Shown: in pieces, positions 22,691 through 59,596 of the stretch
Layout of the letters: the number at the start of each line of letters is the position of its first letter
Position numbering within the stretch: position 1 is the first letter of the stretch
Program-made: the position numbers and the translations under genes
Notes under the pieces: generated by a model
What the model was told of the DNA's origin: nothing
The model's input: the letters and a program-made list of their open reading frames with translations, nothing else
Database searches by the model: none
NCBI RefSeq assembly: GCF_900220985.1
Contig: NZ_OCPC01000001.1
Coordinates: 970,836-1,034,835, forward strand
DNA: 64,000 nt
Origin: Parahoeflea halophila
GTDB taxonomy: Bacteria > Pseudomonadota > Alphaproteobacteria > Rhizobiales > Rhizobiaceae
Direction: 5' to 3'

Positions 22691-22811
22691 TAGCTGATGC
22701 ACCTTTGGCGGCCTACTCCTCCCAGTGCCGCCGCATGAGCTGTTCCCCTCTGGAGGTTTTTTGACCTTCATACCTATTGGGCCCGAGAGCAATCTCGAGG
22801 CCCATTTTTTT
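22691..22811 (+). ncRNA. abcR1: AbcR-family trans-acting sRNA, copy 1
   Basis: About 120 nt, bounded by a promoter and an intrinsic terminator. The 5' hairpin GGCGGC/GCCGCC presents a pyrimidine-rich loop with CTACTCCTCCCAGT, an anti-Shine-Dalgarno sequence; a second exposed stretch GTTCCCCTCTGG follows. The terminator stem TGGGCC/GGCCCA (22778-22783, 22799-22804) with inner CGAGA/TCTCG is followed by seven T. These are the hallmarks of AbcR (alpha-r15) sRNAs, which with Hfq silence ABC-transporter mRNAs. The position next to lsrB/vtlR and the tandem copy agree with S. meliloti, Agrobacterium and Brucella. The numbering 1 or 2 is arbitrary. Confidence 0.88.
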
Positions 22812-22919: not shown

Positions 22920-23042
22920 CAGCTGATGCACCTTTGGCGGCCTACTCCTCCCAGTGCCGCCGCATGAGCTGTTCCCCTCTGGAGGTTTTTTGACCTTCAT
23001 ACTTATTGGGCCCGAGAGCAAATCTCGTGGCCCATTTTTTTT
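22920..23042 (+). ncRNA. abcR2: AbcR-family trans-acting sRNA, copy 2
   Basis: Second copy, 229 bases after the first. From the -35 box to the terminator it differs only at a few places: around the start site (GACTGC for GCTTGT), CTTATT for CCTATT, and in the terminator loop. Both anti-Shine-Dalgarno stretches are unchanged. The terminator TGGGCC/GGCCCA (23007-23012, 23029-23034) is followed by eight T. Because promoter and targeting regions are nearly identical, the copies probably act redundantly, unlike the better separated AbcR1/AbcR2 regulation reported in other rhizobia. Confidence 0.88.
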
Positions 23043-57202: not shown

Positions 57203-58519
57203 TCAGGCCAGCAGTGTCACTGCAATTCCGGCCAGGGTGGAAGCGCCGAGCACCGCAAACAGGTTGACGTGAAAGCGCAGCAACGCCACCCCCGCTGCAA
57301 GGGCGATGGCAAGCGCGCCCGGATTGAGCGTTGCAATCTCGGGCACCGGCAGGGTGAAGGGCCCGAACACGGCCTCCCCGACGCTGGCAAACAGCACATT
57401 GAGTGCGAACCACGCCGCGAGATTGGCGATGACACCAACCACTGCGGCAGTGATCGCGGCCAGACCGGCTGAAAGCCATCTGACCGAGCGCAACCGCTCG
57501 ATATGCGGCGCCCCGGCGAAGATCCACAAAAAGCACGGTGCGAAGGTGAAGAACAGCGCCAGCATTCCTCCAATCAGCCCGCCCGCAAGCGGATCCACCC
57601 CCGCTTCCCGTGCGCCGCCAAGAAAGCCGACAAAGACCAGCACCAGAATCAGCGGCCCCGGCGTGGTTTCGGCCAGCCCGAGGCCCGCCAGCATGTCGCC
57701 GGGCACCAGCCAGCCATGTACTTCGACCGCCTGCTGCCCGACATAGGCAAGCACCGCGTAGGCGCCGCCAAAGGTGACGATCGCCGCCTTCGAGAAGAAC
57801 ATCGCCATGGCGGAAACGGCGTCGGGGACGCCGGGCATCACCAGCAACACGCCCAGAGGCAGAAGCCAGATAGCCCCCCAGACCAACACCGTGCGGAATG
57901 TCGGCCCGGCCAGCGCCGTCACCCCGGAATCCGCAGGCGCACTGCCAGGCCCGGCTCCAACCGTAGGGTCTTGCTTGCCCAGCAGTGAGGCGAGGATCCC
58001 GAGCAGCCCTGCGCCCAGCACGATCAGCGGAAACGGAAGCTTCAGAAACGCGATCCCCACGAATGCCGCGCCCGCCAGACCCCAGGCAAAACGTGATTTC
58101 AGTGCCCGTCTGGAGACCTTGATCAGCGCCTCCAGCACGATCGCCAGCACTGCCGCTTTCAGCCCGAACAGCACGCCGGCCACAACCGGAAGATCGCCAT
58201 AGTAAAAATAGGCCGCCGACAGTCCCATGATAATTGCAAAACCCGGCAGGATGAACAGCAACCCGGCGAGCAACCCGCCAGCGACACCGCGCAGCAACCA
58301 GCCGGCATAGGTCGCCAGCTGCATGGCTTCGGGCCCGGGCAGCAACATGCAGAAATTCAGCGCATGCAAAAACCGCGACTCGTCTAGCCACGGCCGTTCA
58401 TCGACCAGTTCGCGATGCATCAGCGCGATCTGGCCGGCAGGGCCGCCGAAGGACAATAGTCCGATGCGGCCAAAGACCCGGAACATCTCGGACCAGGAGG
58501 GAGCAAATACGGAACTCAT
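57203..58519 (-). CDS. chrA: Chromate transporter
   Basis: 438 residues, about ten to twelve membrane helices in two homologous CHR halves. The first half opens with FRVFGRIGLLSFGGPAGQIA near 13-32, followed by ELVDERPWLDESRFLHALNF, LLPGPEAMQLATYAGWLLRG; the second has FGGAYAVLAYVGQQAVEVHG and AETTPGPLILVLVFVGFLGG. It extrudes chromate from the cytoplasm, driven by the membrane potential. It starts inside the stop of the chrB-type gene (ATGA overlap), so the pair is translationally coupled and shares the leader at 59344-59424. Confidence 0.94.
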   Translation of the reverse strand: MSSVFAPSWSEMFRVFGRIGLLSFGGPAGQIALMHRELVDERPWLDESRFLHALNFCMLLPGPEAMQLATYAGWLLRGVAGGLLAGLLFILPGFAIIMGLSAAYFYYGDLPVVAGVLFGLKAAVLAIVLEALIKVSRRALKSRFAWGLAGAAFVGIAFLKLPFPLIVLGAGLLGILASLLGKQDPTVGAGPGSAPADSGVTALAGPTFRTVLVWGAIWLLPLGVLLVMPGVPDAVSAMAMFFSKAAIVTFGGAYAVLAYVGQQAVEVHGWLVPGDMLAGLGLAETTPGPLILVLVFVGFLGGAREAGVDPLAGGLIGGMLALFFTFAPCFLWIFAGAPHIERLRSVRWLSAGLAAITAAVVGVIANLAAWFALNVLFASVGEAVFGPFTLPVPEIATLNPGALAIALAAGVALLRFHVNLFAVLGASTLAGIAVTLLA

Positions 58520-59346
58520 GATGCAGCTTTCCCCGAGGCCGGAGTATGAATTTTACCGGTAGCATGACGGCACCACGCATAGAGCGCGTCGTAAATCACC
58601 ATGCTCTTTTCCAGCAGTGCCAGATCATCCTTTTTCGAAGATGACAATCCCAGCGCAATCGCCAGCAGCCCTGCCGCTTGCCGCGCCTGCTCAAGTTCGC
58701 CCGTGTCCGCCGCGCGGACGATCCGCGCCAGATGCCGCAGCGCCATTTCCTCGATTCCGAACAGATCCAGTAGCGTATCGACGCTGCACGAACTACCGGT
58801 GTCGCCGCGGCGAGTATAGGTCACGCCACCGACATCAAACGGGATCGCCCCCATTTCCCTGGCAATATCGACCACCCACTCTTCTTCGACGAAATGAAAT
58901 TGCGCCATTGGATCGATGAACCGGCGCACCATCCAGGCGAACGCCATGCAGCCGGGTGCGGGGCTCTCCCGGGCAATCCACCACGTCGGCTCCGGCAACA
59001 GCAGCGGCACGCCCGGTCCCCTCCGCTTGAGCACCATGCCGCCCGCCTCTTCATAGGCATTGATCCCACCTTCCAGATAGCTTGCGTCAATACCCATGGC
59101 TCGCAACCGCGCCACCGCCAGCTGGCTGACATTGTGCCCGTGCACGCAGTAGACAATGATCGGTTTGCCGAGCCGTGCGAGATCAGGCCCCCAGATTTCG
59201 CTCTGCATGTGGTCGCGCCAAACAGATCCTGCAATCGCGCGTGCCTCGTCCTCGAACTTGGCGCGCCGGCTCGCGGCAACGACCGTCGGCCAGCTGCTGG
59301 TGCCGGACAGGCTGGAAAGGTCCTGGGCTGAGATTGATTTGGACAT
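58516..59346 (-). CDS. chrB: ChrB-domain chromate resistance protein with rhodanese-like domain
   Basis: 276 residues. An N-terminal rhodanese-like domain (about 1-105) contains the catalytic Cys loop in IIVYCVHGHNVSQLAVARLR near 60-79. A C-terminal ChrB-type domain follows (RESPAPGCMAFAWMVRRFID; EMGAIPFDVGGVTYTRRGD; EEMALRHLARIVRAADTG). ChrB proteins sense or respond to chromate and accompany ChrA. ATG 59346 is preferred, with GGGG six bases upstream; the site lies in a hairpin. The 36 codons further upstream overlap the structured leader and are unlikely to be coding. Confidence 0.9.
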   Translation of the reverse strand: MSKSISAQDLSSLSGTSSWPTVVAASRRAKFEDEARAIAGSVWRDHMQSEIWGPDLARLGKPIIVYCVHGHNVSQLAVARLRAMGIDASYLEGGINAYEEAGGMVLKRRGPGVPLLLPEPTWWIARESPAPGCMAFAWMVRRFIDPMAQFHFVEEEWVVDIAREMGAIPFDVGGVTYTRRGDTGSSCSVDTLLDLFGIEEMALRHLARIVRAADTGELEQARQAAGLLAIALGLSSSKKDDLALLEKSMVIYDALYAWCRHATGKIHTPASGKAAS

Positions 59347-59424
59347 GGTGATCCCCTTCGCATAGCTACGAAGGGCGGAACTTGGGCTCACGCCTGCAAC
59401 GGGGAGTCCACCCGTAACCCCGTG
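59344..59424 (-). promoter_or_regulatory. Structured chrB leader RNA, candidate riboswitch
   Basis: Minus-strand RNA of about 78 nt from the predicted start at 59424 to ATG 59346. Three stems: (1) ACGGGG/CCCCGT at 59423-59418 and 59404-59399; (2) GGCG/CGCC at 59394-59391 and 59377-59374; (3) CCCTTCG/CGAAGGG at 59375-59369 and 59360-59354. Stem 3 pairs the ribosome site (AAGGGG), and shares two bases with stem 2, so the two are alternatives, which is how a switch works. Loop 1 (GGGT) can pair with loop 2 (GCCC). A cis-regulatory chrB RNA motif has been reported computationally in Alphaproteobacteria; I cannot confirm from memory that this is the same element. Confidence 0.6.
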
Positions 59425-59430
59425 CTGTGT

Positions 59431-59459
59431 TTCTAGGTCAGGTTTTCCGGCCACGCAAG
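59431..59459 (-). promoter_or_regulatory. Promoter of chrB-chrA
   Basis: On the minus strand CTTGCG (59459-59454), 17 bases, CTAGAA (59436-59431). Places the start near 59424, at the first base of leader stem 1. Confidence 0.7.
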
Positions 59460-59555: not shown

Positions 59556-59596
59556 AAGCGCCGTCATTCTTGATTGGGACGGCGCTTGATGTTTTT
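59556..59596 (+). terminator. Terminator-like hairpin in the rplY leader
   Basis: Perfect 10-bp stem AAGCGCCGTC/GACGGCGCTT (59556-59565 and 59578-59587) with a 12-nt loop, then GATG and a run of five T (59592-59596). It is about 60 bases upstream of the rplY start within the predicted leader, so it looks like an attenuator rather than the end of a gene. Confidence 0.6.

Follow-up and report, generated by a model that had tools for sequence, protein, structure and literature searches.

How the chromate resistance genes of Parahoeflea halophila are controlled is the question raised by the leader in front of its chrB-like gene. Within the window, i.e. the whole stretch of 64,000 nucleotides that was analyzed (contig NZ_OCPC01000001.1, positions 970,836 to 1,034,835), a first-pass annotation had read this leader region (minus strand, 59344-59459) as three hairpins, the last of which could hide the ribosome binding site of chrB, and had considered a switch plausible. 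Here, we compare the leader with its relatives and ask to which class of RNA it belongs, which of its helices are conserved, and whether these helices could act as a switch.

The locus and its relatives

The chrB-like gene (58516-59346, minus strand, with its ATG at 59346) encodes a 276-aa protein in which Pfam detects a fusion of rhodanese and ChrB_C and no match to ChrB_N. It is followed by chrA (57203-58519, minus strand), encoding a chromate transporter (Pfam Chromate_transp), the start of which overlaps the chrB stop (ATGA); the order of leader, chrB and chrA is the placement expected for the chrB RNA class. A search of the genome contigs for relatives of the window's protein found one locus only. 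The divergent neighbor of the leader is the gene for ribosomal protein L25. A 10-bp inverted repeat, AAGCGCCGTC / GACGGCGCTT, with a 12-nt loop (59556-59587), lies between this neighbor and the promoter of chrB and is followed on the plus strand by GATGTTTTT; it resembles a terminator or a leader element of L25. Elsewhere in the window, the alphaproteobacterial sRNA ar15 (RF02345) is present as a tandem pair on the plus strand, at 22692-22809 and 22921-23039 (95.0 and 95.3 bits).

To collect relatives, we searched for ChrB_C (PF09828) and found it in 94 of 247 genomes of the family and in 59 of 386 genomes of the class. The resulting 166 upstream regions comprise those of 160 chrB loci, with fragments and some second ChrB_C copies excluded from the fetched set, as well as the window and five Hoeflea regions found via the RNA itself. 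R1, a model of the P1 and P2 hairpins built from 29 equal-length leaders, gave 48 and 80 matches at E ≤ 1; five of the 80 lay off the leader place and were dropped, and 123 were kept. Ten leaders missed by R1 were added via descriptors, two of them (L048 and L191) placed by a descriptor that uses the pseudoknot, so that a leader was located in a total of 133 loci (L004 and L008 included), mostly at a similar distance before chrB. By the R1 and descriptor route, the RNA is present in 124 of the 160 fetched chrB loci; L086, L161 and L174 are also RNA-bearing by the chrB-b model of Rfam, and in L033, L137 and L159, the sequence ends before the place of the expected leader. The core set consists of 132 leaders (L161 was left out), eight of which (the window, L004, L007, L008, L010, L012, L013 and L014) are the window itself or were obtained via RNA matches; 119 leaders were left after removal of duplicates. 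Because MAFFT misplaced the 5' arm of P1 when aligning whole cores, the alignment of these 119 (A4) was made from loop 1 onward; a structural alignment by R1, with 126 columns, was unused. The tree comprises 108 ChrB protein rows. A descriptor combining P1, P2 and the pseudoknot fires on shuffled sequence, its score being reached in 39 of the 166 shuffled regions compared to 101 of the 166 real ones, and its count was therefore left out of the evidence.

Anatomy of the leader

The 132 leaders have one anatomy in common, namely hairpins P1 and P2, a CAAG linker, a pseudoknot in which loop 1 pairs with the sequence following CAAG, and a hairpin, P3, over the Shine-Dalgarno (SD) site. In the parsed leaders, P1 mostly has a GGGG/CCCC core with a loop of 9-13 nt, P2 is mostly GGC-N4-GCC, and CAAG or a near form follows; after it come a strand that can pair with the 3' part of loop 1, its register being nearly constant, then the SD hairpin and the start codon. 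The loop and strand sequences themselves take several forms: GCGAU/AUCGC in chrB-a-like leaders, GCAG/CUGC in chrB-b-like leaders, GCCGU/ACGGC, and GGUGGA/UCCGCC in leaders of the window's kind.

In the window, P1 (59399-59423, all leader elements being on the minus strand) consists of ACGGGG (59423-59418) and CCCCGU (59404-59399) around a 13-nt loop; the Rfam match, the relatives and R2, a second covariance model, agree on this hairpin, which confirms the first stem of the annotation. Comparison and covariation place the 5' strand of the pseudoknot, GGGUGGA, within loop 1 (59407-59413) and its 3' strand, UCCGCCC, at 59373-59379, bases 59373-59375 being common to P3. Between the two strands lie P2, GGC-GUGA-GCC (59385-59394), identified by comparison, and the CAAG linker (59381-59384), conserved in the alignment of relatives. 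P3 (59354-59375) is a 9-bp hairpin, CCCUUCGUA (59375-59367) / UGCGAAGGG (59362-59354), that is predicted from shuffles and energies to mask the SD site AAGGGG (59353-59358), 6 nt before the ATG.

Among the 119 distinct leaders of A4, 98.6% of the P2 cells are paired, with double changes in 2 of the 3 pairs; this hairpin has no bases in common with stem 3. The second stem of the annotation, which was said to share bases with stem 3, is a different one; its bases were unnamed, and we took them from predicted folds to be GGCG/CGCC. This candidate was rejected, given that it is paired in 70.2% of cells in relatives and 70.4% in shuffles, with zero double changes among the relatives. Minimum-energy folding of the window's leader alone, which gives a stem 2 other than the conserved P2, yielded no significance (z of -0.19 over 114 nt and -1.27 over 80 nt), and the covarying long-range helix would have been missed by energy alone.

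Several leaders depart from this plan. L161 / L250 (G563:C3), at 77 nt over the chrB-b model, has an expanded P2 region and retains P1 and the pseudoknot strand. L266 (G011, same genus as the window) belongs to the window's kind of leader; its P1 is broken, ACG stands where the start codon would be, and it looks like a decaying copy. In L010 (G003, also of this genus), ATT (1577-1579) stands in place of ATG as the chrB start after an intact leader.

The position of the promoter relative to P1 is conserved. In the interval from -41 to -32 before the GGGG of P1, TTGAC was found in 100 of the 132 leaders (background 0.006 per interval) and TTG[AC] in 127 (background 0.053 per interval), the start of TTGAC being mostly 39-36 nt before GGGG. 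In the register of this element, the window has TTGCGT (59453-59458, minus strand) as the putative -35 element and, 17 nt after it, TAGAAA (59430-59435, minus strand), read from the sequence, as the putative -10 element; a TA-element lies at most one base from the latter place in five other Hoeflea leaders. Given the usual spacing, transcription is predicted to begin at the foot of P1, 2-3 nt ahead of GGGG (in the window near A59423), and the predicted leader RNA would extend from this +1 to the start codon of chrB (59344-59423; the R2 match spans 59344-59428). A scan of the window for E. coli-type sigma-70 promoters found none. The good promoter that had been claimed at the first stem thus holds with respect to its position, by virtue of the conserved distance, but less so with respect to its letters, both hexamers being weak.

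Relation to the chrB RNA class

The chrB motif reportedly goes back to Weinberg 2017, and Rfam splits it over two models, neither of which is named for a ligand. A search of the window at the curated Rfam cut-offs reports neither chrB family. In E-value searches of 401 bases, chrB-b (RF03086) scored 25.1 bits (E 0.0027), below its gathering cut-off of 36.5, and chrB-a (RF03078) 24.7 bits (E 0.03), below its gathering cut-off of 43.9; each match covers the full length of the respective model, and the two overlap. With chrB-b, the window's leader shares P1 and P2 (model positions 1-49 are matched), CAAG, and a 3' tail that can form 7 pairs with loop 1, a complementarity that in chrB-b is read from the model consensus rather than from the Rfam annotation. 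It differs from chrB-b in its longer loop 1 (13 nt) and longer linker between P1 and P2, and the chrB-b model stops before P3. With chrB-a, the leader shares P1 and an SD-masking hairpin directly before the start codon of chrB, the match extending to the ATG. However, the arms of this hairpin depart from the chrB-a consensus (CCCUUCG/CGAAGGG in the window as opposed to GCGUCC/GGACGC), and the printed structure of the chrB-a model has no P2.

Among 20 diverse leaders compared with Rfam, 19 exceed one of the cut-offs (14 that of chrB-a and 5 that of chrB-b), and L175 reaches 35.6 of the 36.5 bits. In L078 and L157, both models match at one site, such that the kinds of leader grade into each other. 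The 20 leaders of the GGUGGA kind fare differently against chrB-b: five pass the cut-off, ten match below it, and for five (the four Hoeflea leaders among the 20, plus L035), a search at E ≤ 0.05 gave no match. The existence of a group intermediate between the two Rfam models explains why annotation misses leaders such as that of the window. R2, a covariance model that includes P1, P2 and P3 and was built from 18 GGUGGA-kind leaders outside the window's genus (Hoeflea), matches the window at 59344-59428 with 61.3 bits (E 3.4e-14 in a search of 78 kb and 1.8e-12 in the whole genome); the sole other match in the whole genome at E ≤ 1 scores 21.3 bits, and 8 of 18 genomes of the genus have a match at E ≤ 0.01. 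By sequence, the assignment of the window's leader to the chrB class of cis-regulatory RNAs, as a divergent member, is as good as settled. The Rfam matches and the R2 score bear out the suggestion of the first-pass annotation that the leader belongs to the described motif or is a variant of it, and the covariance-model check that it had proposed found the leader conserved in homologous chrB leaders, which disposes of the objection that such conservation might be lacking.

Covariation of the pseudoknot

The annotation had also proposed that loop 1 pairs with loop 2, with the bases not given. We found no support for this pairing; the covarying partner of loop 1 is the strand after CAAG, and in the window, GGGUGGA (59413-59407) would pair with UCCGCCC (59379-59373). 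For the five central pairs of the pseudoknot, 95.7% of 576 cells in the 119 leaders are standard pairs, compared to 82.2% in shuffles and 18.7-51.5% in slid registers. Cells changed on both sides number 89 as against 34.3 in shuffles, and double changes occur in 4 of the 5 pairs, which is equaled in 78 of 500 shuffles. On the tree of 108 ChrB proteins, the six column pairs of the pseudoknot show joint changes on 17 branches compared to 3.5 expected, a number reached in none of 5000 permutations. However, joint changes are also above expectation, at 92 against 51.5, in 66 other column pairs, so that a part of the excess reflects shared ancestry or alignment. Independent changes in the columns of the 3' strand are few (13 in column 50, 3 in 51, 4 in 52, 1 in 53 and 3 in 54), and a sign test on supported branches, with very few pairs, carries little weight.

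The pseudoknot itself has already been published: the CaCoFold study (PMC7657543) lists the chrB RNA among its examples of new pseudoknots supported by covariation, in agreement with the covarying pseudoknot found here. The available part of that paper mentions neither a competition with the SD hairpin nor which of the two chrB families was meant. In the literature searched under names of the chrB RNA, this was the only paper to the point, and we make no claim that the overlap between pseudoknot and SD hairpin is new in print.

Overlap with the Shine-Dalgarno hairpin

The third stem of the annotation, CCCTTCG/CGAAGGG, is confirmed as P3, which is two pairs longer, at 9 bp, and covers AAGGGG. 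In the window, P3 on its own has a z of -4.35, and none of 100 shuffles of the tail reaches its score. In each leader, we sought the best helix that the sequence following CAAG can form with the region upstream of the start codon; in 106 of 130 leaders, no more than 5 of 100 shuffles of the leader itself reach the score of this helix. The register of P3 varies by group, chrB-a-like leaders using GCGUCC, the GGUGGA kind CCUUCGC and the window CCCUUCGUA. In leaders with the chrB-a-like arm (n=95), the base before UCC and its SD-side partner form G-C in 64, A-T in 15, G-T in 7 and A-C in 0 cases, with no call in 9; where A precedes UCC, the partner on the SD side is never C. A simple call of the SD site has fewer than 3 paired bases in 53 of 131 leaders, including L010, which has no helix, the lack of P3 there being due to the choice of a wrong start codon.

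The 3' strand of the pseudoknot (T2-T6) falls within the best P3 helix in 125 of the 130 leaders, compared to 57.7% in shuffles that keep T1-T6; the five leaders in which the best downstream helix lies off the pseudoknot strand are L050, L103, L160, L165 and L176. Because this strand is part of P3, the pseudoknot and P3 exclude each other. In the window, the overlap comprises C59375-C59373, the first three bases of stem 3, and because only 3 of the 7 pseudoknot pairs clash with P3, partial coexistence via branch migration is possible. The calculated energies, loop costs excluded, are -13.8 kcal/mol for P1 and P2, -14.9 for P3 and -11.6 for the pseudoknot duplex; by this estimate, the two rival helices would be similar in strength, with P3 scoring as the more stable.

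A putative translational switch

Comparison of the leaders shows the class membership, P1, P2, the pseudoknot, P3, their overlap and the position of the promoter; we infer from these that the overlap is a switch, that it turns translation on, and that it responds to a small molecule or ion and not to a protein. The switch that the annotation had envisaged remains plausible in that two conserved helices are mutually exclusive, but one of the competing pairings differs from those it had in mind. Under the model that we somewhat favor, at slightly better than even chances, the leader is a translational on-switch of the chrB class for chrB-chrA. In the resting state, P3 would pair with the SD site and hide it. 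An inducer, be it an ion, a metabolite or another signal, would stabilize the core of P1 and P2 together with the pseudoknot, whereby loop 1 would capture bases of the 5' arm of P3 and P3 would open; translation of chrB and, with it, chrA could then proceed. A similar arrangement is seen in pseudoknot riboswitches such as that for fluoride, in which a small pseudoknot fold competes with the expression platform, the element that turns expression off.

The same two states could also be read with the opposite sign, the ligand-bound pseudoknot blocking the ribosome. Some small pseudoknot riboswitches are off-switches, and the end of the pseudoknot lies 14 nt before AAGGGG. However, it is P3 itself that masks the site and P3 that the pseudoknot destroys, and efflux genes are expected to be inducible; we thus regard an off-switch as unlikely. 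A still less probable reading dispenses with a sensor altogether: P3, which at -14.8 kcal/mol is very stable alone, would merely throttle or thermally tune translation, and the pseudoknot would only shape the 5' end. A simple hairpin hiding the SD site has no need of P1, P2, CAAG and the pseudoknot, all of which are kept, with P2 and the pseudoknot covarying.

Genes behind the RNA

The presence of the RNA is associated with the domain composition of ChrB. A rhodanese motif was found in 118 of 129 RNA-bearing ChrB proteins and 5 of 37 counted as without RNA, and a ChrB_N motif in 0 of the 129 and 13 of the 37, by self-made patterns, of which the rhodanese one replaced a strict version that caught only 11 of the 129. 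The 129 proteins exclude L004 and L008; the 37 include L086, L161, L174 and L191, which are RNA-bearing by other evidence, and L033, which is cut. The five rhodanese proteins among the 37 are L033, L086, L161, L174 and L188, the last having the motif with no RNA found. Among the 11 RNA-bearing proteins without the rhodanese motif, some are cut or have a wrong start, and two or three are ChrB_C alone. In line with the motif counts, Pfam detected ChrB_N in all five scanned RNA-less proteins of the 13 with the ChrB_N motif, and rhodanese without ChrB_N in L100 and the window's ChrB.

These differences bear on the relation to the ChrB repressor of Ochrobactrum tritici, which, like the leader studied here, controls a chrB-chrA operon for chromate resistance. 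According to the available part of its description (PMC3817168), this ChrB binds at the chr promoter, the site of an inverted repeat, and the authors propose that its N-terminal part binds DNA and its C-terminal part senses chromate. In the window, by contrast, an RNA leader precedes a rhodanese-ChrB_C protein in which the ChrB_N part of an O. tritici-kind repressed operon has no Pfam match. That the conserved block is instead a DNA operator, an inverted repeat acting on transcription as at the O. tritici promoter (PMC3817168), is very improbable, given that the covariation between loop 1 and the strand after P2 obeys the rules of RNA pairing and that ChrB_N is the part for which the window's ChrB shows no match. 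As far as the proposal for the N-terminal half of O. tritici ChrB (PMC3817168) goes, the RNA may rather stand in for that DNA-binding regulator.

Another possibility, which we likewise consider unlikely, is that ChrB or another RNA-binding protein binds the folded leader and controls translation. The RNA does mostly adjoin chrB: R1 matches 31 of 386 genomes of the class, and 30 of its 32 matches adjoin a ChrB_C place. However, the chrB-b model (E ≤ 1e-3) matches 33 of the 386 genomes, 24 of them over the cut-off, and in 12 of these 33 (G295, G308, G334, G375, G432, G442, G452, G514, G532, G586, G591 and G664), no ChrB_C was found at E ≤ 1e-8, a count in which proteins beyond this threshold could be missed and which includes three genomes less than 90% complete (G308, G334 and G452). 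Seven of the 12 are over the chrB-b cut-off, and in G375, G442, G514, G532 and G586, chrA is the next gene after the RNA. Thus, ChrB seems unnecessary for keeping the RNA. Its presence where ChrB_C went undetected, together with its complementarity with the ChrB_N kind of ChrB, favors an RNA that senses by itself, as the on-switch model would have it.

The other genes found behind the RNA are diverse. In four more of these 12 genomes, the next gene is MFS-like by resemblance to L227 (G452), encodes a porin of the Alginate_exp family (G664), or has a match to the lectin-type domain PF21708 (G308 and G432, over the cut-off in G432 only). Elsewhere, the RNA precedes chrA (L002, L255-L257, and L225 at 187 nt), MFS transporters (L227 and L248), an ornithine cyclodeaminase/mu-crystallin family protein (L222) and a Cj0069 family protein (L238). 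Of 249 genomes of the phylum, 12 are positive; 2 of these belong to another class, and in one of the two, L257, the RNA stands before chrA. In L252 (G819) and L253 (G835), two chrB-b RNAs lie about 2.5 and about 3.7 kb apart, respectively, on opposite strands and convergent, and the RNA read in each precedes an MFS-like gene. Chromate is no more than a first candidate for the inducer, given that the genes behind the RNA include transporters and enzymes of other kinds. We are aware of no RNA that senses chromate or another heavy oxyanion. The main text of a review of former orphan riboswitches (PMC7266159) contains none of the terms chrB, chromate and chromium.

A broader reading, which we put forward as tentative and rather doubtful, is that chrB-a, chrB-b and the intermediate group are one orphan riboswitch class that would sense chromate, a related oxyanion or a product of damage, would switch on translation by exchanging the SD hairpin for the pseudoknot, and would replace the DNA-binding half of ChrB where a rhodanese has taken the place of that half. 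Whichever signal might be involved, a single anatomy with two mutually exclusive helices provides exact mutants for testing. Furthermore, what the RNA may replace is indicated by its occurrence in genomes in which ChrB_C went undetected and by its absence in front of all 13 chrB genes with a ChrB_N motif.
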